A model generated the notes under the pieces. That model was not told the DNA's origin and did no database searches. It saw only the letters and a list, made by a program, of their open reading frames with translations. Position numbers and translations under genes: made by a program. Positions 16,183 through 38,091 of a DNA stretch of 64,000 bases are shown here, piece after piece. The stretch is from positions 1-64,000 of the forward strand of contig JANQFE010000004.1 of NCBI GenBank assembly GCA_028278025.1. Reading direction: 5' to 3'. The stretch comes from Thermodesulfobacteriota bacterium (lineage in GTDB: Bacteria > Desulfobacterota > WTBG01 > CAIYCZ01 > CAIRTM01). Numbering within the stretch: the stretch's first letter is position 1; each line of letters opens with the position of its first letter.

Positions 16183-16197
16183 GGCACTAGTTTTGCA
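16183..16197 (+). promoter_or_regulatory. sigma-54-type promoter for the large exported protein
   Basis: GGCAC-N5-TTGCA with the invariant GG (16183-16184) and GC (16195-16196) exactly 10 nt apart fits the -24/-12 consensus. Transcription would start near 16208, after an upstream in-frame ATG (16198), which supports the later start at 16264. Confidence 0.55.
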
Positions 16198-16263
16198 TTG
16201 TTTTGGCTCAAAGTACTACAGACGTACTGTATGTATGCAAGGAAATTCTGCAGGTATGCATAT

Positions 16264-19200: not shown

Positions 19201-19536
19201 TACGATCATAAGCTGTACTGCCTTGATGCACAAACAGGCGAACACAAATGGAATTTCACGACAGGCGGCTATATTATTTCCTCACCGGCAGTATCTGATG
19301 GGCATATCTATTTCGGCAGTGCTGATAATATTTTTTATTGCCTGAATGCACAAACAGGTGTGTCCGTATGGGAGTTTGCAACCAACTACTGGATTTATGC
19401 ATCCCCGGTTGTTGCAAACGGGTACGCATACATAGGAAGTGCAGATAAAAAGATGTACTGTATTTTTTCAGAACCGGATGATACCGGCAGTTGGCCAATG
19501 TTCAAACATAATCCGGCCCGGACCGGTGTTAACTGA
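16264..19536 (+). CDS. large exported mosaic protein with MopE-like region and PQQ-type propeller
   Basis: The ATG at 16264 gives 1090 residues with a signal peptide (KKQYRRK, hydrophobic core, AGTVQGALE) and an AGG ribosome site; the longer frame from 16198 precedes the predicted transcription start. Approximate domains: SdrD-like B module (39-100, FDNNANGIKDDMDPAIEG), Ig-like module (146-241), Gly/Thr/Pro linker (242-303), cohesin-like beta-sandwich (305-450), Cys/Asp-rich MopE-like metal-binding repeats (460-660, CDGLDNDCDNETDE), PKD/Ig-like module (668-752), and eight 40-residue beta-propeller repeats of the BamB/PQQ kind (754-1075). Eight D-N-x-S/T sites occur. It is probably cell-surface or secreted. 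The role is unknown; adhesion or metal binding are possibilities. Confidence 0.85.
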   Translation: MKKQYRRKCIVFIALVIVVTGATAGTVQGALELHGKKSGSVSGHCFFDNNANGIKDDMDPAIEGLYVSLERFFAFIPGKTVKTATNANGYYEFSGLRSGFYRITCHLEQNHESKNKNSALTWIGFVRNSKVIDFSIHAQKNSTANITVSISAEPDTIYQGELATLQWQAVGADSVSIDQGIGEVPAQQQSSHNPHNSDEISPNVIAGSLQVKPAATITYTITGRTNTGERALDSITITVVAEKPPPGLTTTTVGSEDDAAGDPATGTDDNPGGSGGGGGSSSGEPGSTTTTPQQNQPVCEEDDSGMLDIAKSFYARDKNTVVHTVRVNNAPHEVFSFAFAVTYDAALLDFLAAVQGDCVESYAFIECSGDTSGVVFCEGITDEADMIKSGDNCSIVDFHFEILREPCPSGMCPGILAIESAEGGFTGWVTSKGCFCCSDNCTDNNTRACPNQNGVCAGTEEICFGAVWSGCRYSDNAAYQDQESMCFDELDNDCDGRSDDNDTDCLAGYHFEAECSDGIDNDGDNMTDCADSDCEGAGSDEDRCFTGEVGVCAQGTMRCSHGELVCVRDADPTPELCDGLDNDCDNETDENFLLGDNCTVGMGICRRAGLYTCSDNGSAVCDALPGEPEIERCSDSIDNDCDGLIDCQDAHCAGDPACNLPPSASIFDPADGRMFVETESISFRGSATDSEDGVLSGSSLVWSSNKDGVIGTGTEFITNNLSRGIHTITLTATDTGGGQGTDSITLTIGVIGEPVWSFATDGYIESSAVLYGGYVYVGSYDGKVYCLDTQNGSTIWEFETGGIIRSSPTIAGNYLYVGSGDSFVYCLNALTGAPIWSFATGDMVNSSPAVSGGYVYIGSGDHKLYCLNAQTGQLQWAFTTGYWIHSSPAVSGGYVYIGSDDNKLYCLNAATGSIVWEFSAAQWIQSSPAVSSEYVYVGCDDNKLYCLNAHTGSINWEFETGGNVQSSPAIADGNLYIGSYDHKLYCLDAQTGEHKWNFTTGGYIISSPAVSDGHIYFGSADNIFYCLNAQTGVSVWEFATNYWIYASPVVANGYAYIGSADKKMYCIFSEPDDTGSWPMFKHNPARTGVN
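18525..19484 (+). repeat. eight in-frame 120-bp repeats coding propeller blades
   Basis: Landmarks of the form TAT(G/A)T(C/G)GGCAG recur at exactly 120-bp steps (18600, 18720, 18840, 18960, 19080, 19200, 19320, 19440), and AAGCTGTACTGCCT recurs in several units. Each unit codes 40 residues with the pattern W-x-F-x-T-G ... SSPAVS-GGYVYIGS-D-K-YCLNA-TG. The absence of any indel over eight units indicates either recent amplification or strict blade length. Confidence 0.85.
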
Positions 19537-19768: not shown

Positions 19769-21436
19769 ATGGCAGTCCGGTTGATTGATCTGCGTTTGCA
19801 GAAACATAAAGAAATATTTACGGAAGCACCTGATAAAAGTAATCTGCATCCGGTTGGTCGGATCAAAACCGATCGCGGCTGGCAAACAGTAGATTCACCG
19901 TATGACCCATGTGGTGAAGTACGTCGCGCTATAAGTAAAAAGGTTATGAAAGGGTCGCACATCCTTGTTCTTGGTGCCGGATCAGGCTTTTTAGCATCTG
20001 AACTTCTTAAAACGGGTAAGCACACGATAATTTTAATAACCGGGAGTTTGCAACTGGGCAAAAAAAATGCCGAGTTGTTCAGGACATGTGCTAACGGTTC
20101 AATACATTGTACCGTAATTGTCGCTTCACAACTGAGTGATAGCCTGATCACATACCTCCAGGACCACTTAAAGGATAAAAAGGAATATAACATTCTTTAC
20201 CATCCGCGTGAAACAAACATATATCCGGCATTGTTCGGCCCCCTGGCACTTTTTTTAGAGAGTATTTTTTTGCCTTTTACTAAGAAATCATCAATCCCCC
20301 CTCGAAAAGTGCTGCTGGCCTGCTCAGGACAGCTGTTTGAGCCTGAATTGCATAATGAACTTATCCTCAGGGGGATAGAGGTTGCACAAGTTGATGCGTT
20401 TACAAGCAGGCACATTACCCACCGGCAGGCATGGCAGCAGATAAGAAAATACCAGCCTGATCTGGTGCTCTCAACAAACAACAAAGGTTCTGATACCTTC
20501 GGCTATATTCCGCAAGCGTGCAGCCTGGCCGGAATCAAATGGGCAACATGGTTTCTTGACCAGCCCAAATTTTCTGTTAGCGAACACGAGATAACCGATC
20601 AACAGAAACGTTTTGCATTTTGTTGGGATATTGCCGGTGTTGAAGCGTGCAATGAACTCAAATTCGGAGCAGCAGAGTTACTGCCTCTGGCTACAAATAC
20701 AAAGCATTTTACACCAGGCGACGGCAAGAGTTTTTTACATGGAAAGATTGTATATGTCGGGAGTCCGTCTTTCGGCAATGAAAGAAAATATTTTGCCGGT
20801 TTACTCAGAGACCCCAAGGCACATCTGATTGCAAAAGCCTTTGAGCAGCAGATATGGCAGGAGCGCACCCTGCCGACTCACGATGCAATGGTACAAATGA
20901 TTACTTCTTACGGATTATGTGATCATTTTACGGGCAATACACTAAAACGTTTACCTGCTTTTGCACTGTTTAAAGCAAATCTGTCTTACAGGATTGCTGC
21001 TCTGACATATATTGCCGACCTGCAGCCGATTGTATACGGGGATGGATGGCAGGGTTTGCTTCCTGAAACCATTCAGCTGCACGGCTATGCAGATTACTAT
21101 AGAGATCTGCGCAGCATTTATCGCTCTGATGCAGTACATCTGTCTCTTACTCATCTGCAAATGCGGCATTACCCTAATCAAAGAATTTTTGACGCAGGCG
21201 CTTGCAGCAGAATTGTTCTTGGTGAAAGACTTGATGGCTGGCATGAACTCTTCGGCAATGAATTTGATGATCTTACTTTCAAAGATTTTAAGGAACTTTA
21301 TGAGAAAGCGCTGATGCTGAAAAACTGTGCAAGAAAGAGAAAAAAAATCGGTGAGTCCCTTCGTGACCTTATATTACGAAAACACACGATTGCCGATAGA
21401 ATCGATAGCATGTTTGATGTGCTTGGTACTGCCTGA
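19769..21436 (+). CDS. Maf-N-like/CgeB-type glycosyltransferase fusion
   Basis: 555 residues. The N-terminal part (about 25-150) contains GWQTVDSPYDPCGEVRRAI and ILVLGAGSGFLASEL, matching the N-terminal region of Maf motility-accessory proteins and a Rossmann loop. From about 180 the protein resembles CgeB/Glyco_trans_1_2 enzymes: LRGIEVAQVDAF, KYQPDLVLSTNNKG, WATWFLDQPKF, LPLATNTKHF and KIVYVGSPSFGNERK, ending with the receptor-like RIFDAGACSRIVLGE segment. Two homologues with the same layout lie at 29698 and 33066. It is the first gene of the glycosylation island; a role in flagellin or surface-protein glycosylation is inferred from context. There is no strong ribosome site at this ATG. Confidence 0.78.
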   Translation: MAVRLIDLRLQKHKEIFTEAPDKSNLHPVGRIKTDRGWQTVDSPYDPCGEVRRAISKKVMKGSHILVLGAGSGFLASELLKTGKHTIILITGSLQLGKKNAELFRTCANGSIHCTVIVASQLSDSLITYLQDHLKDKKEYNILYHPRETNIYPALFGPLALFLESIFLPFTKKSSIPPRKVLLACSGQLFEPELHNELILRGIEVAQVDAFTSRHITHRQAWQQIRKYQPDLVLSTNNKGSDTFGYIPQACSLAGIKWATWFLDQPKFSVSEHEITDQQKRFAFCWDIAGVEACNELKFGAAELLPLATNTKHFTPGDGKSFLHGKIVYVGSPSFGNERKYFAGLLRDPKAHLIAKAFEQQIWQERTLPTHDAMVQMITSYGLCDHFTGNTLKRLPAFALFKANLSYRIAALTYIADLQPIVYGDGWQGLLPETIQLHGYADYYRDLRSIYRSDAVHLSLTHLQMRHYPNQRIFDAGACSRIVLGERLDGWHELFGNEFDDLTFKDFKELYEKALMLKNCARKRKKIGESLRDLILRKHTIADRIDSMFDVLGTA

Positions 21437-21462
21437 ATATATAACCGGAAGGGTAATATGTG

Positions 21463-23211
21463 ATGTTTAGTGCTCAAAAGGCTGATAAACTACAAAAACT
21501 TTTCAAAGAAAAGAGATATAACCGGCTTCATAAAAGATTGTTACGCACCTTTGATGAATTTAATAAAAAAGTATATGCGGGTTTTTCAAAGCATACCCTG
21601 CAGGAAATTGATCGTTTTATTGATGTATTCTTTTATCTTTTGAGCAAAAAAGAATTTATACTGGGCCACTACCATAGAAGATACTTACAGTACGTAACAC
21701 TGCTGGAAAACTTAACGTTTTTATCATCATATACATCGACAACATCGCTATTAAAGACACTGTGCCGCCACTCAGACAGCGAAATATATAAAATTCTATT
21801 GCTGCTCAATATGAGAATAAAGATTGATTTTGAGCTGGTTGATGATCTTTTTAAGCAGGATAGTGTTTTGGGTTCATACTGGCTATATTGCGTATATGCA
21901 CGTCATTGTTTTTTCAATACCCTTGTAGCCGACAACCTTAAAATTCTTCAACAAAGGTTGATTAATTATAATCTGCATCCTTTTAAAAATATCTGCTCTG
22001 TTTACTTTAATGCTACCTATGTAAATCCGGCAAACCACCTGGAAGTTAGAAAAAAAATAAATGATACTATTAAAGAAAAAATAGTTTTTACGCAAGTTGA
22101 AAACGTATCAGAGCATAACCTGAAGCCAAAGATTGCAATTCTGTCAAAAAACTGGGTTAGAGACAGTGCAGTGAGAAAATGTATTGGTGCATTCATAAAA
22201 AATTTGAAAGACGATTATGTGCTCTCGCTTATCCAAATCAACGGATCCGGCAGCTTAAAAACACCTCAATACTTTACAAATATGTATAACATTACCACTA
22301 ACGGTATGCATATTGACTATTCATCCATTGTAAAAAACGATTTTAATATTATTATTTTTCCCGATATCGGTCTTAACACTGAATCGCTTTTGCTTTCAAA
22401 TCTGCGTATGGCTCCTGTTCAAATTTCAATGTATGGACACCCTGTGAGCAGTGCATCAAAAGAAATAGACTTTTTTTTTGTTGGCAACCTTTCAGAGACG
22501 GAACAAGTTAGACAGCACTACACAGAAAAAGTAGTACCTATAAAAGGACCGGGCATGAATTCCATGCGTCCCCCGGTAGATCGTCCAAGCTTTAGAGAAA
22601 AATCTGCATGTCTTGCTGATAAGAAGATACATATTTTTGTTTCATCATCTGCTCCTAAAATTAACTCCCTGATAAAACATTACTGGAAAAGGATTGTAGA
22701 TGAAGCTCAAGAGAAAATAAAGCTTCACTTTTTACCGGGAAATGCCGCAATGCAGGAAATTTCAGTTCTTCGTTATGAGATGGAAGATTTAATCGGCAGA
22801 ACAAATGTCACTATTCACCGCTATAAGCACTATGGGCAGTACATGAATGTCATAAAAAAATGTGATCTTGCAATCGGATCTTATCACTACGGAGATTTTA
22901 ACAGGGTAATTGATGCCCTGTGGATGGGAACACCTTTTATAGCAGTACAGGGTGTCTGCGGCTATCAGAATACGGGGGCAGCTGCTTTGAGGGCTGTTGA
23001 GCTTGATGAGTTAATTGTCTCGGATCTTGATGAGTACGTTTCAAAAACAATCGAGCTGATTACTGACTCTCAGCGCAGGAAACAACTGCAGCACAAGATC
23101 CTCAGGTACAACTTAGTCGACAGGCTGATTAATAACAAATGCTATATTCAGGACTTTAAGGAAAAGATCAATAACCTTATTGATCTATCTGTACTGCCTA
23201 AGGCCGTATGA
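21463..23211 (+). CDS. GT41-family, HMW1C-like protein glycosyltransferase
   Basis: 582 residues from ATG 21463 (a GTG at 21460 is an equally placed alternative; GGAAGGG precedes both). The N-terminal 200 residues are helical. The C-terminal half carries the GT41 signature: APVQISMYGHPVSSASKEID (about 325-345), a KVVPIKGPGMNSMRPP stretch, KIHIFVSSSAPKIN, and GDFNRVIDALWMGTPFIAVQG near the UDP-sugar site. The GHP and following segments resemble HMW1C-type N-glycosyltransferases more than TPR-bearing O-GlcNAc transferases; no TPR array is seen. Such enzymes glycosylate Asn in N-x-S/T in the cytoplasm. Substrate here unknown: flagellin and the D-N-x-S/T-rich exported proteins are candidates. Confidence 0.72.
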   Translation: MFSAQKADKLQKLFKEKRYNRLHKRLLRTFDEFNKKVYAGFSKHTLQEIDRFIDVFFYLLSKKEFILGHYHRRYLQYVTLLENLTFLSSYTSTTSLLKTLCRHSDSEIYKILLLLNMRIKIDFELVDDLFKQDSVLGSYWLYCVYARHCFFNTLVADNLKILQQRLINYNLHPFKNICSVYFNATYVNPANHLEVRKKINDTIKEKIVFTQVENVSEHNLKPKIAILSKNWVRDSAVRKCIGAFIKNLKDDYVLSLIQINGSGSLKTPQYFTNMYNITTNGMHIDYSSIVKNDFNIIIFPDIGLNTESLLLSNLRMAPVQISMYGHPVSSASKEIDFFFVGNLSETEQVRQHYTEKVVPIKGPGMNSMRPPVDRPSFREKSACLADKKIHIFVSSSAPKINSLIKHYWKRIVDEAQEKIKLHFLPGNAAMQEISVLRYEMEDLIGRTNVTIHRYKHYGQYMNVIKKCDLAIGSYHYGDFNRVIDALWMGTPFIAVQGVCGYQNTGAAALRAVELDELIVSDLDEYVSKTIELITDSQRRKQLQHKILRYNLVDRLINNKCYIQDFKEKINNLIDLSVLPKAV

Positions 23212-23232: not shown

Positions 23233-25095
23233 ATGAATATACTGCTTCTGGGAAATGTACACTTTAAAGATTCGCTTGAGAAACTCGGCCACCGGGTAAC
23301 TGCCAAGGCCGGTGATCATGCTGAAATGTATGATCTAACACACTTTGATGGTGATCTTATTATACTGCATGAAACACTCGGCATGCGCGAATTGCCGCAT
23401 GGTGTGGAACGGACTGACGTTCCGACTGTTTTTTATAGTGTTGATGTACATTTAAATCTGTACTGGCACAAAGAGTATGCAAAATTGTTCGATTATGTGT
23501 TTGTTTCTCAAAAAGATTATGTGGACATGTTTGAGCATGAGCAGGTGTACTGGCTGCCCTGGTCCATAAACCCCGATATTTTCAGGGATTATGGCCAGGA
23601 GCGCAGCCGTGATATCGTTTTTGTCGGGACCATTGATGCGCAGCGGATAAAACGAAAGAGTATCATTGATGCATTAAAAAAAAGATTTCGTGTCAATGTA
23701 TATGGAACTGATCCTCACCAACGGATTGCCAGAAAAAAAATGGCACGATTATTTTCACAGGCCAAAATTATCCTGAATGAATCAATATACGGTGAAATCA
23801 ATTTCAGGACATTCGAGGCGCTGGCGTGTGGGGGCATGCTTTTAACGGAAAACGTTGCAAACGGTTTAGGTGAGCTCTTTATTGACGGTGAAGAGATAGT
23901 TACCTTTGATCATTGCAATCTTATTGAAAAGGCCGAATACTACCTGCACAACCATAAAAGGCGCAGGGAAATTGCTCAGCAGGGCATGCACAAACTGTTC
24001 ACGTTTCATACAGTACAACGAAGAGCCCAGGAAATGCTTGGTGTTCTTTATGACAAAAAATTTAAAAAACGTCAGAGAGACACAGAAGAGTTCATTCATT
24101 TCGGCAAGGCCCTCTATTTTACGGCTATGAAATTTCCGCGCTACCGGAATAGAAGACTTTCCAGGGCAGCTTTTTTCTTTAAAAAATCACAGACGTGCAG
24201 ACCGTCGGATTATGAATCAGCACTCTATCTCAGCCTGATACAGGCCTACAGAAAAGAATACACGAAGGCTAAAAATACTTTGCGCCCCTGGGTGAACAAA
24301 CAAAGTGATTCCATGCTCCAGGTAATCTTTGGTTTTCTTGAACTGGAATCGGGCTGCCCATCAGAAGCCGAATCATCCTTTAAAAAAGCCGGCCTGGAAA
24401 CGGGTTATGCCGACCTGAATTTCATGATTCAGGTCGGCAAATTGTATGAACAGCATGGTTACCTTCATGATATTGGTTTGCTGCATGACGGTACTATCCC
24501 GTTATATGCCATGCAATGCTATCTGCATACACCGACCCTGAAGGGTATTTTATGTGCAGCAAATCTTCACTACAAGCTCGGCATGCTTGAAGCGGCCAGT
24601 ATGCTCTATGAATCCGTCAGCAAGCATATCCCCGGGCGCAAAGCCTTACATATTAAATTGGCCCGCACCTATGTATATACCTACAGGTTCGGTTTGGCTA
24701 TTGATGTGTTACAAAAGATAGTACCTTTAAACGAGGTAGAACATTTAGACTTTCTGGCGCAGGATCAAAAAAGAATTCTTAAAAGTGCAATACGTATGAA
24801 TATGCAAGATTACAAAGGGGCAATAAATGAGATTATATCAATAAAAAGTGATGAGGCCTATATGCGCATTGGACATGCCTATATGCACCTGAATGATATA
24901 CCCAATGCGCTTTTCTATTACCAAAAAGCATGTAATAAACGGAGCTTTGATCCTGAGGTGCATGTTCTGCTGGGTAGGGCCTACCACAGGCTTGTCAATA
25001 TGCCGTATGCTGCGGAAAGGTTACAACACAGTTTGTCCCTCAAAGAGGATAGCTTTATTAGAAAACTCTATACTATTGGCCACAATGCTGCATAA
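23233..25095 (+). CDS. CgeB-type glycosyltransferase with C-terminal TPR repeats
   Basis: 620 residues. About 1-265 form a CgeB/DUF3880-like glycosyltransferase: MNILLLGNVHFKDSLEKLGH, FYSVDVHLNLYWHKEYAKLFDYVFV, WLPWSINPDIF, DIVFVGTIDAQRIKRKS and the acceptor-loop INFRTFEALACGGMLLTE. From about 330 to 620 a series of helical hairpins of TPR type follows (MRIGHAYMHLNDIPNALFYY, VLLGRAYHRLVNMPYAAERL). TPR tails on glycosyltransferases usually bind protein acceptors. It starts 21 nt after the GT41 gene, so the three genes 19769-25095 form one unit. Confidence 0.8.
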   Translation: MNILLLGNVHFKDSLEKLGHRVTAKAGDHAEMYDLTHFDGDLIILHETLGMRELPHGVERTDVPTVFYSVDVHLNLYWHKEYAKLFDYVFVSQKDYVDMFEHEQVYWLPWSINPDIFRDYGQERSRDIVFVGTIDAQRIKRKSIIDALKKRFRVNVYGTDPHQRIARKKMARLFSQAKIILNESIYGEINFRTFEALACGGMLLTENVANGLGELFIDGEEIVTFDHCNLIEKAEYYLHNHKRRREIAQQGMHKLFTFHTVQRRAQEMLGVLYDKKFKKRQRDTEEFIHFGKALYFTAMKFPRYRNRRLSRAAFFFKKSQTCRPSDYESALYLSLIQAYRKEYTKAKNTLRPWVNKQSDSMLQVIFGFLELESGCPSEAESSFKKAGLETGYADLNFMIQVGKLYEQHGYLHDIGLLHDGTIPLYAMQCYLHTPTLKGILCAANLHYKLGMLEAASMLYESVSKHIPGRKALHIKLARTYVYTYRFGLAIDVLQKIVPLNEVEHLDFLAQDQKRILKSAIRMNMQDYKGAINEIISIKSDEAYMRIGHAYMHLNDIPNALFYYQKACNKRSFDPEVHVLLGRAYHRLVNMPYAAERLQHSLSLKEDSFIRKLYTIGHNAA

Positions 25096-25212: not shown

Positions 25213-25228
25213 CGGCACACTAATTGCT
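25213..25228 (+). promoter_or_regulatory. sigma-54-type promoter for the gpsA operon
   Basis: CGGCAC-N5-TTGCT with GG (25214-25215) and GC (25226-25227) exactly 10 nt apart fits the -24/-12 consensus. The predicted start near 25239 leaves a 37-nt leader before gpsA. A perfect 8-bp hairpin (CCTGATAC 25127-25134 with GTATCAGG 25150-25157) upstream separates this unit from the preceding gene. Confidence 0.6.
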
Positions 25229-25275
25229 TTTATAATTATCCGAAGAACTCTCAACTGTGTAAGGATGTGCGGAAC

Positions 25276-26253
25276 ATGAAGACTGTAATTATAGGTGCCG
25301 GTAATTGGGGAACAACCCTTGCAAGTATTTTTGCACAAAAACATGCTGTTTCATTATGGACAACAACGGCTGAGCAGGCCCAGAGTATAAATGAGCTTAA
25401 AGAAAATACAAAATACCTCAAGGGAATTGCCCTGCCGCCACAGGTAAGAGCTGTTAAGAAATTTTCGGAACCTGTTGACGAAGATGATATTGTGATCATC
25501 AGTGTACCCTCGAATCAGGTACGCAGTCTAGCCCGCGAGCTTCATACAACTGTCGGCAAACAGCCCCTGGTGTGTGCATCTAAAGGTTTCGAACATCAGT
25601 CATTTAAAACCATGAGTGAGGTAATTAATGATGAACTGCCGCAGTCACCAATAATAGTTTTTACCGGTCCGAATATTGCCCGTGAAGTCGCTGAAGGAAA
25701 ACCTACGAAAGCAGTACTGGCATCAAAGGATTTTGCTGCTGTAAAGCGAGTGGTGGAAGTTTTAAAAAATGACCTCATAACCTTCGAGATTTGTCGTGAT
25801 ATCAAGGGCGTAGAGCTCTGTGCAGCCCTCAAAGGTATAATAGCTATTGGTGTGGGCATTGCAGACGGACTTGGGCTGGGTAAAAACTTCACCGGTGTTC
25901 TCATGACCTATGGTCTCAGAGAATTTACCGAAATATCCGAGTTCTTAGGTATCTCTAAAAAGACAATATACGGTATTGCAGGGTTGGGTGATCTTATTGC
26001 CACCTGTTTAAGCCACAACAGTAGAAATAAAAAATTCGGCTACATGCTGGCAAAGGGAATTAACAGTACCGAGGCCTTGAAAAAAGTAGGCATGGTGGTT
26101 GAAGGAGTACAGATGGCCAAAACTATTTCGGAACTGGAAGATTTGAACATGCCCATTCCGCTTTTTTCTACTATATCAAAAATAATCTTTGAGCCCAATG
26201 GTCACATGCCAAACAGGTTTATTCAGTGTCTAACACACTATAAGTACAATTAG
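25276..26253 (+). CDS. gpsA: NAD(P)H-dependent glycerol-3-phosphate dehydrogenase
   Basis: 325 residues from ATG 25276 (AAGGA upstream; a GTG nine nt earlier is less likely). The Rossmann motif GAGNWGTTLA (about 8-17), the substrate loop VCASKGFEHQSFKTMSEV, the tract TGPNIAREVAEGKPT and the catalytic-region Lys in CAALKGIIAIGVGIADGLGLGKN, followed by GLGDLIATCLSHNSRNKKFG, identify GpsA. It reduces dihydroxyacetone phosphate to sn-glycerol-3-phosphate. Usually this feeds phospholipid synthesis; here it opens an operon whose next gene has cytidylyltransferase and CDP-glycerol transferase-like domains, so it may be dedicated to making CDP-glycerol. Whether a second gpsA exists elsewhere in the genome is not visible. 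Confidence 0.93.
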   Translation: MKTVIIGAGNWGTTLASIFAQKHAVSLWTTTAEQAQSINELKENTKYLKGIALPPQVRAVKKFSEPVDEDDIVIISVPSNQVRSLARELHTTVGKQPLVCASKGFEHQSFKTMSEVINDELPQSPIIVFTGPNIAREVAEGKPTKAVLASKDFAAVKRVVEVLKNDLITFEICRDIKGVELCAALKGIIAIGVGIADGLGLGKNFTGVLMTYGLREFTEISEFLGISKKTIYGIAGLGDLIATCLSHNSRNKKFGYMLAKGINSTEALKKVGMVVEGVQMAKTISELEDLNMPIPLFSTISKIIFEPNGHMPNRFIQCLTHYKYN

Positions 26254-26266
26254 GGAAAGCTGAACA

Positions 26267-29080
26267 ATGAAAGCAATTATTCTTGCTGCCGGAAAGGGTT
26301 CCAGGTTAGAGACATATGCTCAAAACATGCCTAAGTGCCTTGTGTCTATCGGTACTAAAAAGTTACTGGATTACCAGCTGCAGAGCCTTGCATCCATGGG
26401 TATTACGGATATTACAATGGTTGTGGGCTACAAGAAAGAGAAAATTGAGCAGCATATTGAACAGTACCCGAATCTGAATTTTACACTGCTGGAAAATTCT
26501 GATTATGCAGTTACCAATACCGCATATTCATTGTGGCTTTCTAAAGAGACCCTGACCGATGATTTTGTATTCATGAATGCAGATGTGTTGTTTCACCCTG
26601 AAGTTCTACGCAGAATTATGCAGTCTCCCCAGAATAACGTACTCGCAGTTGAGCGCAAACCGGTTGGTCAGGAAGAGGTAAAAGTAATTCTGGACGGATC
26701 TCGCATAAAATCAATCGGCAAAGATATCCCGATTGCGGATTCTTATGGAGAATTTATAGGGGTAGGCAGATGTTCAAAAAAAACAGCTACTCTTTTTAGT
26801 CAGGCACTTGACCAAGTAGTGGCCTGTAATGATGGAAAAAAGGCTTACTTTGAGGCGGCACTCCAACTGATAATTTCGTCTGCATATATCAACGCCGTAG
26901 ATGTTACGGATGTACCTTGCATTGAAATTGATTTTCCAGAAGATCTGTTTGAAGCACGCACTCATATTATTAATGAGTTTTCCAATGGTTCCCAGAAAAA
27001 AACAACAAGAGTACTTTTTTATGCAGAGCGCAACCTGCATTTACCGTTTCTGGAACCCATCCATGATTACATGGCAGCCTATTATGATGTGCAGCTTGCT
27101 TTTGCCGCTCCGCCGTATCAACAACCCCGGTCCGGAGCAACCGGCTACGGGCTGGACAGCCCTACGACGGAACGGCTTAAGGCCAAGAGTGCTTTTTATG
27201 AGCATCCCGATGAATTCCAACCCGATATTATTGTGGTAGCCGATACCTGTTTTTATCCGATCAGGAATAAGTGCAGGATTGTTAATGTCGGCCACGGTTT
27301 GATCAGTAAGGGCTGGTTTTATACCGATTCGCCGGTTGTGCGTCGTGAGAATATAGCAGATCTTATTTGTGTGCCGGGGGTATGGCATAAACAGATCCTG
27401 CAAAAAAACATATTTGTTCCTATACACGTTACCGGTTTTATTAAATCAGATGCTTTGTTTAGATGCGGTACGTATGAAATAAGCAGTTTTTTCAGGAAAC
27501 ATGCAATACCTGAGAACGTAAAAATCGTACTATTTGCACCTACTTTTAATGATGAGCTCAGTGCCGTACCTTGTGTAAAGGAAAGAATTTGTGAGTTGAT
27601 TGAGGAAAAAACAGTCGTACTTATAAAACTGCACAATATGACGGACCCCAAATGGGTGAATATATATGAACGCCTCGCAAAGCAAGAAAAAAATATTTTT
27701 CTTATAGACGATAATGATTTTACTGCAGCTATGACCTGTGCAGATGTTATGATCAGTGATGTCTCATCCGCTTATGTTGAATTCATGCTTTTAGATAAAC
27801 CTGTCGTATTATTCAACAATCCAATGCAAAGAAATTATGATCAGCACGACGAGAACAATATTGAATATAAAGTGCGAGACGCAGGGATACAGGTCGGCAG
27901 TATTGAGGAACTCAAGCTTGCCGTAAAGCTGTCACTTGCCGATCCAGACGAGTATAGTCAGAAAAGACAATCATATGCAGAATTAATCAACTGTAAAATA
28001 GACGGTAAATGTGCCCAGCGGGCTGCCCGGGCAATTATGCAGCTGGCAACCGACGATGAGAGCCGGATTACAGATGACGTTTTTTTCAGTATTATTATGC
28101 ATTGCGGTCAGGCACTATCAAAAGAGGAACTGCATGCAACCCTGCATGAAATACAGCAAAAAAGTGCGGGACTTAAATATGAAATTATTTTAACCGGTCA
28201 TATCAGCACACAGTGGGATATACAAAACAGGAATGTCAGACTGTGTGAAAACAATTATCTTAATCAGGAAAACAAGTTTGATAGAGCTTTGGCAGAAGCG
28301 CGTGGTGATTTTTTCGTTTTTTTGCAGCCCGGAACAGCACTGCCCCGCTTATGGCTGAAATGGTTGTACCATTACTTTAAATGGCATCCCGATGCAGGAG
28401 CCGTAAAAGCACTGTCACAACGAGACGACTATAACAGGATTCTTGAAAAAGCTCCCCCCTCTCAGCGTCCTGAAACCCTGCATGATATTTCTGAATATTT
28501 CGTACATGTGCTGATGGGCAATGAGGTAATGGCTGCAACAGTAGATAATGATACCGAATGTATCATGATTGCAAAAGATGCATATCAAAAACTTTTTGTG
28601 TCCGGGAAGGAAAAGCTCTCAGGGAGCACTCTTGAAGAGATGTGTGCAAAAATGAGAGATTACGGGTTCACGGTTTGGCATGCGCTCGAAGTATTTGTCT
28701 ATCCTTTACACAATCAACCCGCAAGCACACCGGATAAAGTCGCCGGGACAGGCATGGATATCTTTACCAAACCTGCACCTGTTGATGCTTGTCTCCATAA
28801 AACCGGAAACACGCCTGGACAGGAAACTACCCGGCGAAAGAATGAAAACATTGAGAGGCTTTTACAGGAAGCCTTAGATTATAAGAAGGGGAAAAAGTAT
28901 GCTGATGCAATTACCAGACTGGAAAGCGCCAAAAAGAGTATCGAAGACTGTAACGCGGAAGAACAGGGGAACATAAAACATATTGAAGCATTACTGGAAG
29001 AAAGCAGAATGCATAAAAAGAAAAAAGATTATATGGCTTCGATACAATTACTTGAAGAGGCTAAACAAAAAATTGCCTAA
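26267..29080 (+). CDS. fusion: cytidylyltransferase-like + TagB/TagF-like glycerophosphotransferase + GT2-like + helical tail
   Basis: 937 residues. About 1-235: nucleotidyltransferase of the LicC/CTP:alcohol-phosphate type (MKAIILAAGKGSRL, MPKCLVSIG, FMNADVLF, YGEFIGVGR). About 245-595: CDP-glycerol glycerophosphotransferase-like domain of the TagB/TagF kind (NVGHGLISKGWF, VLFAPTFNDEL, VLIKLHN, CADVMISDVSSAYVEFMLLDKPVVLFNNP). About 605-790: partial GT2-like fold (FFSIIMHCGQALSKEELHAT, FDRALAEARGDFFVFLQPGT). About 860-937: two charged helical hairpins like TPRs. It starts 13 nt after gpsA. The combination suggests one polypeptide that makes CDP-glycerol from the GpsA product and transfers glycerol phosphate to a glycan. 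Substrate assignment is inference; CDP-choline or CDP-ribitol are alternatives. Confidence 0.78.
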   Translation: MKAIILAAGKGSRLETYAQNMPKCLVSIGTKKLLDYQLQSLASMGITDITMVVGYKKEKIEQHIEQYPNLNFTLLENSDYAVTNTAYSLWLSKETLTDDFVFMNADVLFHPEVLRRIMQSPQNNVLAVERKPVGQEEVKVILDGSRIKSIGKDIPIADSYGEFIGVGRCSKKTATLFSQALDQVVACNDGKKAYFEAALQLIISSAYINAVDVTDVPCIEIDFPEDLFEARTHIINEFSNGSQKKTTRVLFYAERNLHLPFLEPIHDYMAAYYDVQLAFAAPPYQQPRSGATGYGLDSPTTERLKAKSAFYEHPDEFQPDIIVVADTCFYPIRNKCRIVNVGHGLISKGWFYTDSPVVRRENIADLICVPGVWHKQILQKNIFVPIHVTGFIKSDALFRCGTYEISSFFRKHAIPENVKIVLFAPTFNDELSAVPCVKERICELIEEKTVVLIKLHNMTDPKWVNIYERLAKQEKNIFLIDDNDFTAAMTCADVMISDVSSAYVEFMLLDKPVVLFNNPMQRNYDQHDENNIEYKVRDAGIQVGSIEELKLAVKLSLADPDEYSQKRQSYAELINCKIDGKCAQRAARAIMQLATDDESRITDDVFFSIIMHCGQALSKEELHATLHEIQQKSAGLKYEIILTGHISTQWDIQNRNVRLCENNYLNQENKFDRALAEARGDFFVFLQPGTALPRLWLKWLYHYFKWHPDAGAVKALSQRDDYNRILEKAPPSQRPETLHDISEYFVHVLMGNEVMAATVDNDTECIMIAKDAYQKLFVSGKEKLSGSTLEEMCAKMRDYGFTVWHALEVFVYPLHNQPASTPDKVAGTGMDIFTKPAPVDACLHKTGNTPGQETTRRKNENIERLLQEALDYKKGKKYADAITRLESAKKSIEDCNAEEQGNIKHIEALLEESRMHKKKKDYMASIQLLEEAKQKIA

Positions 29081-29102: not shown

Positions 29103-29720
29103 ATGGAACTTAGCAGCAGGGAACAACTGAAGTTTGAAATTTATCAAGAACTCGGCGAATGTTATACTCACATCGGGAAAATCGGTGAAGCAATAGAACA
29201 TTTTAATGTTGCCCTGGACATTGACTCGCAAAGTGAAAGACCGTTTATAGGTTTAGGAGTTGCAGTGCTACAGGAAAATAATATCGAGCAGGCAAAAACC
29301 TATTTTAAAAGTGCACTTAAAAATAATCCGCATAATGATAAGGCCCTGACAGGACTGGCCATGGCACTCAGCAATAACGGCGATAAGGAAGAAGGTTTTA
29401 AAAAATATCAGGAGGCTCTGGACATCTATCCCGGAAATGTAACGGCCCTTATGGGACTTGTGCAGAGTGCGTATGGTTTCCAGAGACTGGAAGTAGCCGA
29501 ATACTACTTAAAACAGTATCTCGATCTTTATCCAGGCAACATTAAAATGCTGTATTGTTTAGCCGGGACATACTTTAAGCAGAAAAAATTGTCCGAGGCC
29601 AGAGAGTTGCTGGAAAGAATTTTTATTTTTGAGCCTGATCATGCAGACGCGCACGAACTGCTCCGTAATATCGACATGCTCCGGCAGGATACTACAGATG
29701 AACTCTGCCAAAATTTTTGA
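29103..29720 (+). CDS. TPR-repeat protein
   Basis: 205 residues from ATG 29103, which follows a strong AAGGAGGAAGCGAGC; the longer frame starting at 28983 would overlap the preceding gene by 98 nt and lacks a ribosome site. Nearly the whole protein consists of five to six TPR units (e.g. YQELGECYTHIGKIGEAIEHF, KALTGLAMALSNNGDKEEGF, MLYCLAGTYFKQKKLSEARE). No signal peptide, so cytoplasmic. Sitting between glycosyltransferase genes and overlapping the next one by 23 nt, it probably scaffolds the glycosylation complex or binds the acceptor protein. Confidence 0.8.
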   Translation: MELSSREQLKFEIYQELGECYTHIGKIGEAIEHFNVALDIDSQSERPFIGLGVAVLQENNIEQAKTYFKSALKNNPHNDKALTGLAMALSNNGDKEEGFKKYQEALDIYPGNVTALMGLVQSAYGFQRLEVAEYYLKQYLDLYPGNIKMLYCLAGTYFKQKKLSEARELLERIFIFEPDHADAHELLRNIDMLRQDTTDELCQNF

Positions 29721-31494
29721 AGAAAACAGAGCACTGCTCGGTGAGAGTGCTCTGGATAACGACCTGCAAAAGGACTGCCTGTACAATACAGATACAAACC
29801 AAAATATCAAGATAGTGCGTGCCCGCTCAGGGCATCCGGTATTACAAGTGCTTGGTGAGTACGGTGCCTGGCATACCCTGCACAGCCTGGTTGATCCGTA
29901 TGCAGAAGCAAAGCGCTTTGCGGAAAACGTTACCCCGTTGAAGAACTCAATAGTTGTCATCCTGGGAATGGGTATGGGGTATCATGCAGAACAATTACTT
30001 AAGAACACTGAGAACCAGCCGGTAGTCATAATTGAAAAAAACCGGGAGATCCTTAAGAGTTTTTTACACACAGTGACTCTGAAAGAATGGGCTAAGGATA
30101 GATTCGTTTATTTTATTGCCACTGACGATACTGCTGTCGTTCTAAAACGTATTTCACGTATACAACTGAAGCATGCCTTACAGCCCTTTACAATAGTTGA
30201 GCATAGACCTTCAACCAGGCTTTACCCACAATTTTATAGTAGTATTAAACACATGCTTGGTCATATACAAAATATTAACATCGGTGCAAAATGCAGGTAC
30301 CAGAAATTTAAAAATGAACAACTTCGTATTCTCATAATCCACAGCAAGTATTATCTTCTGGCCGAAATCCTCAACAGCTTAAAAAAACTTGGACATAATA
30401 CAAAACTTATTATGGTGGAAACAGACCATGAAGGGCAGGGCAGCCAGGAAGTTATTGAAAAAATAATTGCTGAAATACTTGTTTTTAAACCTGATTTTGT
30501 TCTGACAATTAATCATCTGGGATTCGATAGGGCGGGGATCCTGACACAGTTTTTTACCGATATAGAGCTACCCTATGCGTCATGGTATGTTGACAGCCCG
30601 GTCTTCATATTAGAGGACTTTAAAAAACAGATTTCCCCGCTTCTTGCAATTTTTGTCTGGGACAGCGATTACATCAGTGATTTAACACAACGCGGTTTTG
30701 AACATGTATTTTATCTACCGCTTGCAACTGACCCTGATATTTTTAAAGACATTACATTACATGCGAACCCATTAAAAAAAATTGCCTGTGACGTCGGTTT
30801 TGTCGGCAATTCCGGCGAGCACATTATTGACGAATGTACGCAGAAATTGCACAAAAACCGGATTGCATTAAAGCTGCTTGACCGGTTTGCACGGCAATTT
30901 ATGCTTTCCAAGGAACGTTTGCTCCAAAATATACAGATTGATCTTAGTGCGGAAGAGCACTACGAGTATCAAAATATTATGGAAAATATGCGCAGTGTTT
31001 TTGAACCTGCCGTAACGTGGAGAGCAACGCAGATATACAGGATAGACTGCATAAAAAAGCTGCTCGGTTTCAGACCGCGCATTCATGGTGATCCTGGGTG
31101 GAGCACGCATGTCAACGGTCACGCACTGCTTGGTTCCGAGCTAAACTATTATGAAGAACTCCCTCATTTTTATAATGTCTGCACCGTGAATTTTAACACG
31201 ACAAGCCTGCAAATGAAACAGGGAGTAAACCAGCGTGTTTTTGATGTGCCGGCCTGCAGAAGTTTTTTGCTGACCGACTACCGTCGGCAAATTGAAAACA
31301 TGTTTGAAATAGACAAAGAGGTTGTATGCTATAACCATCCTGATGAAATCAAGGATTTGATATCTTTTTATTTAAGACATCCTACACACAGACAGAGCAT
31401 TGCCGCTAAAGCTTATACGCGCGTTCTTGAAGAACATACCTACATGCACAGGATCACTATGTTACTTGATCATATGAGAACACTCTATGGATAA
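29698..31494 (+). CDS. Maf-N-like/CgeB-type glycosyltransferase fusion, paralogue 2
   Basis: 598 residues from ATG 29698 (AGGA 8 nt upstream), overlapping the TPR gene by 23 nt. N-terminal Maf-like domain (about 20-150): RSGHPVLQVLGEYGAWHTLHS, VDPYAEAKRFAEN and VVILGMGMGYHAEQLL. C-terminal CgeB-like glycosyltransferase (about 205-590): LRILIIHSKYYLLAEILNSL, VFKPDFVLTINHLGFDRAG, YASWYVDSPVFI, VFYLPLATDPDIF, CDVGFVGNSGEH, and NQRVFDVPACRSFLLTDYRR. Same layout as 19769 and 33066. In flagellar loci Maf proteins transfer nonulosonic sugars to flagellin Ser/Thr; here only the N-terminal part is Maf-like and catalysis must rest with the CgeB-type half. Confidence 0.8.
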   Translation: MNSAKIFEENRALLGESALDNDLQKDCLYNTDTNQNIKIVRARSGHPVLQVLGEYGAWHTLHSLVDPYAEAKRFAENVTPLKNSIVVILGMGMGYHAEQLLKNTENQPVVIIEKNREILKSFLHTVTLKEWAKDRFVYFIATDDTAVVLKRISRIQLKHALQPFTIVEHRPSTRLYPQFYSSIKHMLGHIQNINIGAKCRYQKFKNEQLRILIIHSKYYLLAEILNSLKKLGHNTKLIMVETDHEGQGSQEVIEKIIAEILVFKPDFVLTINHLGFDRAGILTQFFTDIELPYASWYVDSPVFILEDFKKQISPLLAIFVWDSDYISDLTQRGFEHVFYLPLATDPDIFKDITLHANPLKKIACDVGFVGNSGEHIIDECTQKLHKNRIALKLLDRFARQFMLSKERLLQNIQIDLSAEEHYEYQNIMENMRSVFEPAVTWRATQIYRIDCIKKLLGFRPRIHGDPGWSTHVNGHALLGSELNYYEELPHFYNVCTVNFNTTSLQMKQGVNQRVFDVPACRSFLLTDYRRQIENMFEIDKEVVCYNHPDEIKDLISFYLRHPTHRQSIAAKAYTRVLEEHTYMHRITMLLDHMRTLYG

Positions 31495-33094
31495 AGTACT
31501 TGTTATACAGATGGCCCGACTGGGTGATTTTATGCAGACTACTCCGCTCATTCAGGGCATTAAGCAGTCAAACCCATCATGCAGGATCTGGGTACTTATT
31601 GACAAGTCGTTACATGATGTTGCTTTGCACTGCCCTTGTGTAGATGAAATACTGACCATTGATACCGTAAAGCTGTACCGGATGGCAGAAAGCACACATA
31701 ATCTTGTCGGCTTGTATGAAGAATTGAAGCAAAAATGTGCATTTTTAAAAGAACTAAGGTTTGATTGTATATACAATGTTAATTTTTCGCCGCTGACTGC
31801 ATATCTGAGTTCAATACCGCAATGTCCAAAGGTGGTCGGATACAGCCTGTGCGCTGATCGCAGGGAAATTGCCGGCAGTCCCTGGTTTCAGTTTCTTAAT
31901 ACGATTGTAAAATTTGCACCTCTTGCTCCTTTCAATCTGGTTGATTTTTTTACAAACCCTAATGACCTGGGAATGCATACCAATAACCATCTGCATTTTT
32001 TGCTTAGTTCTGCCGAACAGCATGCCGCTGAAAAAAGGCTGTACGCTCATAACATTTCTCAACAGGATTGTATCATTGCATTACAACTCAGCACACGCAA
32101 TATACAGCGGCAATGGCCCCTGGAATATTTTTCAGAGCTTGCGGTCAAACTACTCAAGAATGAGGGTACCCACATATTGCTGCTTGGTTCAAAAGAAGAT
32201 GAAAAGCGTGCTGAAATATTTAAACAGCAGATCATGCAAACAGCCCCTGCAATGCTCAAACGTATTCATGATTTCGTATCAAAGACAACCATACCCGAGC
32301 TTGCCGGACTGCTTTCCCTGGCACAATTACTTATTAGTTGCGATACCGGTACTATTCATATTGCAGCTGCGGTGGATTGCAAAATACTGGCACTTTTCTT
32401 CGGACCGGCACGTGTGGAATACACGGGCCCATACGGCCGTGGACACTGGATTTTACAAGTCAGCAATGCATGCAGCCCCTGTATTGAGGATAAACCGACA
32501 TGTGATGATTATTTGTGTACTCGCATTATTAAGCCGGATACGGTAGTGTCCGCGGCTCAACATATTATCTATAACCGTGCTCTCGATGCTGAATTGCCGA
32601 AGGATGTCACGCTGCTAACATCGTACTATGACAAGTGGGGCATACTATATGAACCCGTAGACAGCAGACCACTTACTCTAATAGATATTCAAAACGTTGT
32701 CTACCGGGAAATGGGAAAAAAGATTTTAGACCAATCATATTGTCCTGATCTTCTCGAATTTGAAGATACGTACCGGTATTTGAGCAATACCATAAAATGT
32801 TACACTGCAATATTCAAAAGTGTTCTTATGCAAGGCAGAAAATTGATCAACAGCTATTATACTAACCATTACGAGTTGCAGTGTGCTGCCCTGAATGATG
32901 ATATGTCTTTCTGGCATCCGTGGATTGATTATTATCTGTGTGCAATCCGCTATGGCACACAACAGCAGGTGCAGAGCATTTTTGTGAGCGGGTTACATGC
33001 TGCTACGGAATTACTCAGTAAATTGGCAGAAAGTCAAAAATCAACCGTAAAGCAGGTTCCTCAACATGAAACAGCAAGAGAATATATTTGTTAA
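31487..33094 (+). CDS. GT9-family (heptosyltransferase-like) glycosyltransferase with C-terminal extension
   Basis: 535 residues; starts 8 nt inside the previous gene. Residues 1-350 are a complete GT9 fold as in LPS heptosyltransferases: KVLVIQMARLGDFMQTTPLI, IALQLSTRNIQRQWPLEYF, LLLGSKEDEKRAEIF, LAGLLSLAQLLISCDTGTIHIAAA and LFFGPARVEYTGPYG. The conserved Asp-Thr-Gly-x-x-H motif is present. About 375-535 is a helical extension shared with the second GT9 gene at 34898 and not part of usual heptosyltransferases. Similar GT9 genes occur in flagellin glycosylation islands of deltaproteobacteria; the sugar donor cannot be inferred. Confidence 0.82.
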   Translation: MDKVLVIQMARLGDFMQTTPLIQGIKQSNPSCRIWVLIDKSLHDVALHCPCVDEILTIDTVKLYRMAESTHNLVGLYEELKQKCAFLKELRFDCIYNVNFSPLTAYLSSIPQCPKVVGYSLCADRREIAGSPWFQFLNTIVKFAPLAPFNLVDFFTNPNDLGMHTNNHLHFLLSSAEQHAAEKRLYAHNISQQDCIIALQLSTRNIQRQWPLEYFSELAVKLLKNEGTHILLLGSKEDEKRAEIFKQQIMQTAPAMLKRIHDFVSKTTIPELAGLLSLAQLLISCDTGTIHIAAAVDCKILALFFGPARVEYTGPYGRGHWILQVSNACSPCIEDKPTCDDYLCTRIIKPDTVVSAAQHIIYNRALDAELPKDVTLLTSYYDKWGILYEPVDSRPLTLIDIQNVVYREMGKKILDQSYCPDLLEFEDTYRYLSNTIKCYTAIFKSVLMQGRKLINSYYTNHYELQCAALNDDMSFWHPWIDYYLCAIRYGTQQQVQSIFVSGLHAATELLSKLAESQKSTVKQVPQHETAREYIC

Positions 33095-34901
33095 GAATCT
33101 GAAGACTTTGAGGAAAAAAAATCCTCAGCTGGCGGAACGGCTTCTGGATATACGCGTGCCCGGTTACTACAGTGTTGTAACGGCACGCAGCGGGCATCCT
33201 GTGCTGCACGTTATGAATATAACCTTTCACAGCATGTATGATCCTGTAAAGGAAGGACAACATTTTGCAGATTACCATCTAAAAAATGATGATTACAGGC
33301 CAGGTGAAAAAGTTGCTGTTTTCGGGCTTGGATTCGGTTACCACCTAAAAGCCTTGGTTGAAAAAAACATTTCGTGCATCGTAGTTGAACCGCGTATTGA
33401 AATAGTGCGCTTCGCCATGGAACATATTAATCTTGAAGATATACTGGCACACATTGAAATATATACGGAAACAGATATAGTGCTGGAGAGTGATACCAGG
33501 CTCTGGCCGCACCAGCCATCGGTAAAATACAGCAAATCATCGTTTGACCGGCTGAAATGCTTACGCCCTGTAAGCCGAACCGACCATACCGACATACATC
33601 ATCAGTCTCAAGAAAAAGAAAGGTTAAAAATTACCGTCGTTACACCAATTTACGGCGGCTCACTGCCGGTGGCTAGGTACTGTTATGCTGCGCTGAAAAA
33701 GTTGGGCCATGATGTTGAGCTTTGGGATGCATCGATCTTTGAGGAACCTTTTGCCAAAGCACTTTCACTGGATGTTCATGACAAGAATAAAAAAGTTCTG
33801 CATGATTTATTTCTGCACCTTATTTCAGAGATGATTGTGGCATCATGCACACAATCGCCACCCGATCTGCTCCTGGCTCTTGCACAAGCCCCGCTCAGTA
33901 TCAAAGCCCTTGAGCGTATTAAGAAACTGAAAATCATTACAGCATACTGGTTTGTCGAAGATTATCAGCTTATGGAGTACTGGAGAACCTATGCACCTTA
34001 TTATGATTTTTTCTTTACAATTCAAGAACATGGATTTTTTGAAGAGCTGAAAAAATGCGGTCTGAAACACTGCTATTATTTGCCGATGGCTGCAGATCCG
34101 CAAATACACAGACCCCTTGTATTGACAGAATCTGAAAGGCAGGAATTCGGCAGTGATATATCTTTTATGGGAGCCGGTTATTATAATCGTGAAAAGATGT
34201 TGCAGGGGCTGCTTGATTATAATTTTAAGATATGGGGCACGGGGTGGAATCCTGTTTCAGTTTTGTGGCAACATGTGCAGGACTGCGGAAACCGCCTGTC
34301 GACTGAAAAAACGGTTAAAGTTTTCAACGCTTCTAAAATAAATATTAACCTGCACTCGTCGGTATGCCATCAAGGTATAAATCCTTTTGGAGATTACCTA
34401 AATCCCCGAACTTTCGAGATAGCATCATGCGGCGGTTTCCAGTTGGTAGACCGGCGCAGTATGCTTGCAAGGCATTTCACAGAAGATGATGAAATAATAT
34501 GTTATGCATCACTGCAGGAACTGCGGGATAAGATAAATTGTTATCTACAAAAACCGGATGAAAGGCTGAAAATAGCCGGACGTGCACGCAACCGAATCCT
34601 TAAAGAACATACATACGAACATCGTATGCAGGAACTGATTACTTTTATTAGAACGCACATGCCGGAGCAGTTTTTTGTCAGAAAGCAAAGCATACCGATT
34701 ATTGATGATGTTGATACTTTTTGTTCACGACACCCCGAAGTGCAGTCAATTTTTAAAGATATTGACTGCAAAGACAGGGGGGTTGCAATTGATGAAATCA
34801 CAGCAGCAATTCAGTCAAGAAGCGGCCCACTGGAATATCAGGAAGTACTGTTTTTGCTACTCAACGAATTTCATGCAAAATTCAGGGAGTCGGCAGCATG
34901 A
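33066..34901 (+). CDS. Maf-N-like/CgeB-type glycosyltransferase fusion, paralogue 3
   Basis: 611 residues, overlapping the preceding gene by 29 nt. N-terminal Maf-like domain: VTARSGHPVLHVMNITFHSMYDPVKEGQHFADYH region (about 38-75) and VAVFGLGFGYHLKALVEK (about 83-100). C-terminal CgeB-like domain (about 185-535): ITVVTPIYGGSLPVARYCYAAL, ITAYWFVEDYQLMEYWRTYA, HCYYLPMAADPQIH, DISFMGAGYYNREK, NPRTFEIASCGGFQLVD. The final 60 residues are a helical tail. Gene order Maf-CgeB then GT9 repeats that of 29698-33094, indicating duplication of a two-gene unit followed by strong divergence. Confidence 0.8.
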   Translation: MKQQENIFVKNLKTLRKKNPQLAERLLDIRVPGYYSVVTARSGHPVLHVMNITFHSMYDPVKEGQHFADYHLKNDDYRPGEKVAVFGLGFGYHLKALVEKNISCIVVEPRIEIVRFAMEHINLEDILAHIEIYTETDIVLESDTRLWPHQPSVKYSKSSFDRLKCLRPVSRTDHTDIHHQSQEKERLKITVVTPIYGGSLPVARYCYAALKKLGHDVELWDASIFEEPFAKALSLDVHDKNKKVLHDLFLHLISEMIVASCTQSPPDLLLALAQAPLSIKALERIKKLKIITAYWFVEDYQLMEYWRTYAPYYDFFFTIQEHGFFEELKKCGLKHCYYLPMAADPQIHRPLVLTESERQEFGSDISFMGAGYYNREKMLQGLLDYNFKIWGTGWNPVSVLWQHVQDCGNRLSTEKTVKVFNASKININLHSSVCHQGINPFGDYLNPRTFEIASCGGFQLVDRRSMLARHFTEDDEIICYASLQELRDKINCYLQKPDERLKIAGRARNRILKEHTYEHRMQELITFIRTHMPEQFFVRKQSIPIIDDVDTFCSRHPEVQSIFKDIDCKDRGVAIDEITAAIQSRSGPLEYQEVLFLLLNEFHAKFRESAA

Positions 34902-36600: not shown

Positions 36601-37215
36601 ATGAATATAACAGTAAATGGAGCACCGGTGTTGGATCAATGCCGAGACGCTGTCAATCTGGAAGAACTGCTGTTGAAGCTGTCAAGAACCACACTGCCTC
36701 AGGACCATTTAGTGGGTGTAGTAAAGGTTAACGGCGAGGAATTTTCCGAACAGTATGACGGGCAAGCCCGGGAAGTTATGGTTAAAGGAATACAGGAAAT
36801 TGAAATCGCAACGATACCTATCGAAAAATTTGCTGCGGCAGCCTTTAGCGATTGCACAGTACTTATCGGAAAGATTATTGATTCCGTCATGAACACTGCC
36901 GAGCTTTTCAGGATGTATGATGAGTCAGAAGCAAATGAACAGTATAGCAAGGTTATTGATTCACTCAGAGCCCTGTACCAGTTTATTGATTCTACTCAAA
37001 AAACTATCGGGTGGGATTTTACTGCTTCGATGTATCAAGGCAAACCTGTTCAAACTTCCTGGGAACGCCTTATTGAAATTGTTGACGAGCTTAAGCAGCC
37101 CCAGGAAGAAGGTGATTGGGTACTGCTTGCGGATTTGATGGAGTATGAACTTGTTCCTATCCTTACACAATGGAAAGAAATTTTTGGCGAAAAAGCTGTA
37201 AGCTCTCAGGCGTAG
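36601..37215 (+). CDS. conserved-looking protein of unknown function in the flagellar glycosylation operon
   Basis: 204 residues with an excellent ribosome site (AAGGAGGTAACT). Residues 1-75 look like a ubiquitin-like or ThiS-like beta-grasp (MNITVNGAPVLDQ ... GVVKVNGEEFSEQYDGQAREVMVKGIQEIEIATIP). Residues about 80-195 are helical. No signal peptide. I do not know the family. Its location between the last glycosyltransferase and a FliT-like gene, in one run of tightly spaced genes, suggests a flagellin- or chaperone-related accessory role. Confidence 0.7.
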   Translation: MNITVNGAPVLDQCRDAVNLEELLLKLSRTTLPQDHLVGVVKVNGEEFSEQYDGQAREVMVKGIQEIEIATIPIEKFAAAAFSDCTVLIGKIIDSVMNTAELFRMYDESEANEQYSKVIDSLRALYQFIDSTQKTIGWDFTASMYQGKPVQTSWERLIEIVDELKQPQEEGDWVLLADLMEYELVPILTQWKEIFGEKAVSSQA

Positions 37216-38066: not shown

Positions 38067-38091
38067 TGATACCCCCATGCATTATTTATTA

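Follow-up and report, generated by a model that had tools for sequence, protein, structure and literature searches.

A gpsA paralogue and a LicC-TagF fusion gene beside flagellin genes: a candidate CDP-polyol pathway in a Thermodesulfobacteriota bacterium

Positions 1 to 64,000 of contig JANQFE010000004.1 (assembly GCA_028278025.1, Thermodesulfobacteriota bacterium; the whole 64-kb stretch is called the window here) carry, within an island of glycosyltransferase and flagellar genes, a gpsA paralogue followed by a gene for a fusion protein that joins a LicC-like cytidylyltransferase domain to a TagF-like transferase domain. We propose, with a probability of roughly 0.55, that this pair encodes a dedicated cytidine diphosphate (CDP)-polyol pathway that works by way of glycerol and serves a flagellin glycan. 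The second GpsA of the genome would reduce a ketone phosphate, most likely dihydroxyacetone phosphate (DHAP), to sn-glycerol-3-phosphate; the LicC-like domain would convert sn-glycerol-3-phosphate and cytidine triphosphate (CTP) to CDP-glycerol; and the TagF-like domain, in the same polypeptide, would hand glycerol phosphate on to a sugar hydroxyl of a glycan assembled by the Maf, CgeB, GT9 and GT41 enzymes on flagellin while this is still in the cytoplasm. A degenerate GT-A domain and a helical tail at the end of the fusion may bind the acceptor or partner enzymes. What the sequences show directly is the structure of the genes, the families of the domains, the conservation of the catalytic motifs and of the gpsA pairing, the presence of a dedicated second gpsA, and a flagellin context in two lineages. 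The logic of the pathway (a dedicated GpsA, synthesis of a CDP-polyol, transfer by a TagF-type domain, and a flagellin glycan as the target) is well supported by comparison of sequences, and the polyol is likely to be glycerol; we infer that choice of polyol along with the enzyme activities, flagellin as the final acceptor and the addition of one residue rather than a polymer.

The fusion begins with a nucleotidyltransferase domain (residues 2-124, with Pfam NTP_transferase at 2-112) whose closest solved relatives are LicC and PntC, with matches to inositol-1-phosphate cytidylyltransferases as well. An AlphaFold model of residues 1-600 (mean predicted local distance difference test score, pLDDT, 91) was matched by Foldseek to LicC with a template modelling (TM) score of 0.83 on the target (E 8e-18). 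At least 116 of 117 relatives have R13, K23 and D106, which correspond by motif to the R16, K26 and D112 of CpgD (PMC12275187). Residues 1-240 are thus predicted to be a CTP-type phospho-alcohol cytidylyltransferase of the LicC/COG1213 kind, which is unrelated to TagD. The Pfam scan of the fusion gave no domain of the TagD family (PF01467/TIGR01518), and a classical TagD as a hidden partner was rejected, since none of the five genomes searched has a TIGR01518 match above cut-off. In the second domain, Glyphos_transf (PF04464) was found at residues 385-591 with 79.4 bits (cut-off 22.1), and the model of residues 1-600 also matched TagF (3L7I, E 2.6e-14). The HG, IKLH and SDVSS motifs are invariant in 13 aligned relatives and align with the HG, RMH and TDYSS segments of TagF; the comparison covered three of the five published active-site motifs. 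The catalytic motifs checked are therefore intact, and polyol-phosphate transferase activity is predicted for the domain. Bcs3 of Haemophilus influenzae, a large multi-domain capsule polymerase in which a single chain both makes the donor and has a TagF-like function, and whose capsule is a ribitol phosphate polymer, was among the Protein Data Bank (PDB) matches.

The C-terminal third of the fusion is less conventional. A GT2 trace at residues 655-729 stays below the Pfam cut-off, and a model of the third domain, of modest confidence (mean pLDDT 69), matches many GT-A structures with E values near 1e-8. The acidic nucleotide- and metal-binding motifs (DD, DXD) are absent in all five homologues, where LQPGT, LKSGT or FKPRI, for example, are found instead; because of this loss the domain is probably a pseudo-enzyme, inactive as a glycosyltransferase, and an active GT2 domain in the fusion was rejected. 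The tail that follows is helical, varies among homologues and is absent in genome G153. A preliminary description of this stretch, made from the letters and their open reading frames (ORFs), had divided the fusion into cytidylyltransferase-like, TagB/TagF-like, GT2-like and helical parts, and structure prediction and hidden Markov model search bear out this division with some corrections. The TagF-like domain and the tail stand as described; the first domain is a cytidylyltransferase of the LicC and not of the TagD type, and the third has the GT-A fold but is probably not an active glycosyltransferase.

The window GpsA has both Pfam domains of its family (NAD_Gly3P_dh_N and NAD_Gly3P_dh_C) above cut-off and scores 299 bits against NF000942 (cut-off 257); NCBIfam and PDB matches place the cassette GpsA, that is, the copy linked to the cytidylyltransferase, within the glycerol-3-phosphate dehydrogenases. 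Residues K103, K186, D239, T243, R250 and N251 are invariant. A separate housekeeping gpsA, with a stronger family match and 35% identity to the window copy, lies at C145 of the same genome, so the window copy is a dedicated one, and the idea that it is the housekeeping copy placed there by chance was rejected. Housekeeping copies are present too in genomes G185, G098 and G153. A gpsA tree, with too few rows and very long branches, was not used as evidence.

The same two-domain stretch of about 595 amino acids (aa) occurs in four other genomes at 48-60% identity to the window protein, a recurrence far beyond chance. Window-type gpsA was detected (E < 1e-70) in 4 of 395 genomes of the phylum, the present one included, and each time the cytidylyltransferase comes directly after it. 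One pattern-based scan beyond the phylum added at least two further loci with the gpsA-cytidylyltransferase pair, L066 in Phycisphaerae and L071, where the contig ends inside the cytidylyltransferase. Since the cytidylyltransferase of L066 is a separate ORF after gpsA and no TagF-like match was found in that locus, gpsA appears tied to the cytidylyltransferase. G098 encodes the cytidylyltransferase and the TagF part in two ORFs with 12 nt between them, and the fusion is therefore one state of a modular pair. We regard the cassette as a module for the decoration of glycans in general, which at least two lineages have at their flagellin loci.

The coordinates of the pair, its 13-nt spacing and its position behind a sigma-54-like site, as first described, were borne out. 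The site reads CGGCAC-N5-TTGCT, has the GG-N10-GC layout of sigma-54 promoters and is the sole perfect match to YGGCAYRNWNWTTGCW in the window by pattern scan; if only the pattern is considered, hits this good are not unusual in 64 kb, and scores at this level arise in about 3% of random 300-base stretches. What makes the site convincing is that two relatives keep it as a conserved block in diverged upstream DNA at a similar distance of about 63-74 nt, in G185 ahead of gpsA and in G274 ahead of the fusion. A weaker sigma-54-like site was seen at the window FliD gene.

The operon continues from the fusion through genes for a tetratricopeptide repeat (TPR) protein, Maf-type and GT9 glycosyltransferases and a FliT-like protein, and is convergent with fliS, fliD and fliC (Table 1). 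Proteins with a Maf-N domain (PF20157) stand beside fli genes here, as in the islands of Maf flagellin glycosyltransferases. The neighbours named in the preliminary description were recognised by Pfam, except that the FliT-like match falls below cut-off. G185 has the same island in the same gene order, with fliC, fliD, fliS and the FliT-like gene. In G153, which belongs to another family of the phylum, TPR and GT2 genes come after the cassette, and flagellin, flbT and flaF genes face the cassette operon in convergent orientation; the remaining glycosyltransferases there are not counterparts of those in the window. The cassette thus has flagellin genes beside it in two distant lineages, but not in G098. 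A 204-aa protein without a Pfam match is encoded at 36601-37215, after the last GT9 gene and before the gene for the FliT-like protein; its homologue at the corresponding position in G185 is 53% identical.

Table 1. Features of the gene pair and of the surrounding island in the window
Feature	Position	Strand	Basis or remark
Sigma-54-type -24/-12 promoter element CGGCACACTAATTGCT	25213-25228	+	Pattern scan; conserved in G185 and G274
gpsA paralogue, NAD(P)H-dependent glycerol-3-phosphate dehydrogenase family	25276-26253	+	325 aa from ATG; Gly187 beside catalytic Lys186
Fusion ORF, 937 aa	26267-29080	+	13 nt after gpsA end
Fusion residues 1-240, LicC/PntC-like (COG1213-type) cytidylyltransferase domain	26267-26986	+	Pfam, structure match; conserved R13, K23, D106, E220, D222
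Fusion residues 241-598, TagF-like polyol-phosphate transferase domain (PF04464)	26987-28060	+	HG (H343), IKLH (H456), SDVSS (497-501)
Fusion residues ~599-830, GT-A/GT2-fold domain (pseudo-glycosyltransferase)	28061-28756	+	No acidic catalytic motifs
Fusion residues ~831-937, disordered linker and helical tail	28757-29080	+	Variable in homologues
CgeB/DUF3880-type glycosyltransferase, upstream in island	19769-21436	+	Pfam
GT41 (OGT-like) glycosyltransferase	21460-23211	+	Pfam
CgeB-type glycosyltransferase with C-terminal TPRs	23233-25095	+	Pfam
TPR protein, next operon gene	29103-29720	+	Pfam; conserved in G185, 60% identity
Maf-N/DUF3880/Glyco_trans_1_2 glycosyltransferase	29704-31494	+	Pfam; PF20157 above cut-off
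GT9-family glycosyltransferase	31487-33094	+	Pfam
Maf-N/DUF3880/Glyco_trans_1_2 glycosyltransferase	33066-34901	+	Pfam; PF20157 above cut-off
GT9-family glycosyltransferase	34898-36583	+	Pfam
FliT-like chaperone	37249-37596	+	Below Pfam cut-off
fliS	37620-38078	-	
fliD	38092-40422	-	
fliC	40606-41454	-	Only flagellin found in genome

The glycerol-phosphate route to flagellin, as originally drawn, gains from the domains, the gpsA pairing and the flagellin context in two lineages, and several observations weigh against it. In all six cassette GpsAs compared (window, 25276-26253; L038, L039, L040, L066 and L071), which span phyla, the second Lys is followed by Gly (G187 in the window). The corresponding residue is Asn in 29 of 29 housekeeping copies from the phylum and in the three aligned PDB chains, and we take this Asn to be an active-site residue of glycerol-3-phosphate dehydrogenases. 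It is on account of this change, which may either tune the kinetics of GpsA or reflect a substrate other than DHAP, that glycerol is graded as likely and no higher. Enzymes of COG1213 differ in the phospho-alcohols that they use, and the groups that TagF-like domains can transfer include hexose phosphates (PMC12275187, PMC5974469). G274 (assembly 95% complete) keeps the fusion and has the housekeeping gpsA only, and the cassette of G098 is part of a polysaccharide cluster, where no flagellin gene was found up to a distance of about 20 kb.

The alternative that survives best, and which we hold tentatively as a lesser possibility, is that the cassette GpsA reduces another 2-keto phosphate and that the fusion makes a CDP-polyol other than CDP-glycerol and transfers it onto the flagellin glycan. 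The fixed Asn-to-Gly change and the constant link of the cassette gpsA to a cytidylyltransferase both favour it, and retention of the Lys, Asp, Thr, Arg and Asn motif residues can be read in its favour too; that same intact set, together with the NCBIfam and PDB placement, argues for ordinary glycerol-3-phosphate dehydrogenase chemistry. The fusion of G274, served by a housekeeping gpsA, fits glycerol-3-phosphate as the substrate, unless a cassette gpsA was missed in that assembly. A wider form of the idea is doubtful to a like degree: a GpsA subfamily with an altered active site may supply another polyol phosphate, and the LicC-TagF fusion may put a new CDP-polyol on flagellin and other surface glycans in several phyla.

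We consider it unlikely that CDP-glycerol from the cassette goes into a general surface polysaccharide, either O-antigen or capsule, with the flagellin genes as incidental neighbours. The G098 cluster, which includes a gene for uridine diphosphate (UDP)-galactopyranose mutase, would suit that explanation, and capsule polymerases commonly contain TagF-like domains (PMC5974469). The explanation is opposed by the flagellin adjacency in two lineages, the conserved sigma-54 element, the continuity of the operon with the Maf-type and FliT-like genes, and the separate TagF-like loci at C56 and C74 of the same genome.

Known systems both support and limit the proposed CDP-glycerol route. In the published model for the Type A flagellin glycan of Clostridioides difficile, CD0242, similar to CTP:phosphocholine cytidylyltransferase, makes CDP-threonine, and the TagF-similar CD0244 moves phosphothreonine to N-acetylglucosamine on FliC (PMC10714395); PA1090 and PA1091 of Pseudomonas aeruginosa are the counterparts of CD0242 and CD0244 for the b-type flagellin glycan (PMC11833859), the phosphotransferase part of PA1091 being TagF-like as in CD0244. 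Both loci (CD0240-CD0244, and PA1088-PA1091 of strain PAO1) share with the window a LicC-like and TagF-like pair at a flagellin locus. The suggestion that a glycerophosphotransferase-type domain acting on flagellin would be a new use was thus too strong, and a wholly new use of TagF domains on flagellin was rejected on this literature (PMC10714395, PMC11833859). The window differs in having both enzymes in one chain with a pseudo-GT2 domain, and in having a dedicated gpsA in place of the threonine-phosphate and methylation genes; we therefore predict that the transferred group is a polyol phosphate, be it glycerol phosphate or a different one. A phosphothreonine or phosphoserine system of the Type A kind, with gpsA as a mere neighbour, is very improbable despite the shared enzyme pair, given that no ThrH-like phosphatase or methyltransferase was found among the island proteins scanned and that the gpsA present instead belongs to a subfamily linked to the cytidylyltransferase in 6 of the 6 loci listed.

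CDP-glycerol is used by TagF-like capsule polymerases (PMC5974469), and in Campylobacter jejuni HS:1 it comes from a TagD-type enzyme (PMC11924219). The TagD/TagF teichoic acid pathway, Cps3D, Cps7D and C. jejuni HS1.09 with HS1.11 resemble the window pair in having a TagF-like domain that carries two catalytic His motifs, and in CDP-glycerol chemistry, which is proposed for the window. Their cytidylyltransferase is of the TagD type, whereas that of the window is of the LicC type, in a chain without an active glycosyltransferase domain and in an island where no capsule genes were seen. CpgD of Caulobacter, a CTP:phosphoglycerate cytidylyltransferase, shows that LicC-type enzymes can make CDP-glycerate (PMC12275187). 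CpgD, PntC and LicC are COG1213-type CDP-alcohol makers with the same R/K/D catalytic residues as the window domain; they use different phospho-alcohols (CpgD in sphingolipid synthesis), and no fusion to a TagF-like domain or link with gpsA is known for any of them. No report of glycerol-phosphate flagellin, or of flagellin, CDP-glycerol and glycerol phosphate jointly, was found in the open-access literature searched; the LicC-like and TagF-like pair on flagellin is already known from published models, and the predicted glycerol or polyol phosphate branch would be new.

Related genes in other arrangements were recorded. At C56 of the same genome (L041), a 1479-aa protein (9560-13999) with GT4 and two TagF-like domains adjoins a 1180-aa protein (14656-18198) with a sulfotransferase domain and three of the GT2 type, and the two genes may form a separate locus for a teichoic-acid-like polymer; at C74 (L047, 3541-7222), LicC-like and TagF-like genes adjoin with a GT4 gene alongside and no window-type gpsA in the locus. 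Separate adjoining LicC-like and TagF-like genes without window-type gpsA were also seen in L043, L044 and L046, from several genomes of the family. In a Neomarinimicrobiota genome (L055, 9947-12344), two genes judged by eye to be CDP-alcohol phosphotransferase-like follow a cytidylyltransferase that shares about 48% identity with the window domain. In Bacteroidales (L059, 8782-11899; L074, 8913-11793), related cytidylyltransferase and TagF-like genes follow a gene that resembles, by eye, a pyridoxal phosphate aminotransferase, which suggests an amino-alcohol phosphate donor. Elsewhere in the window, again by eye, a putative secreted protein of 1112 aa (16198-19536) combines MopE-like Cys/Asp-rich and pyrroloquinoline quinone-type beta-propeller repeats, and adjoining agmatinase-like and pyruvoyl arginine decarboxylase-like genes (55930-57396) probably form a polyamine pathway.

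If the proposed CDP-polyol pathway is correct, the phosphodiester decoration of flagellin would come to include, besides phosphothreonine, glycerol phosphate or a different polyol phosphate, and a flagellum would carry a negatively charged, teichoic-acid-like group. The LicC type would then be a non-homologous replacement for TagD as a CDP-glycerol synthase, and the pairing with gpsA makes the donor of this LicC-TagF enzyme class directly testable with two purified proteins.

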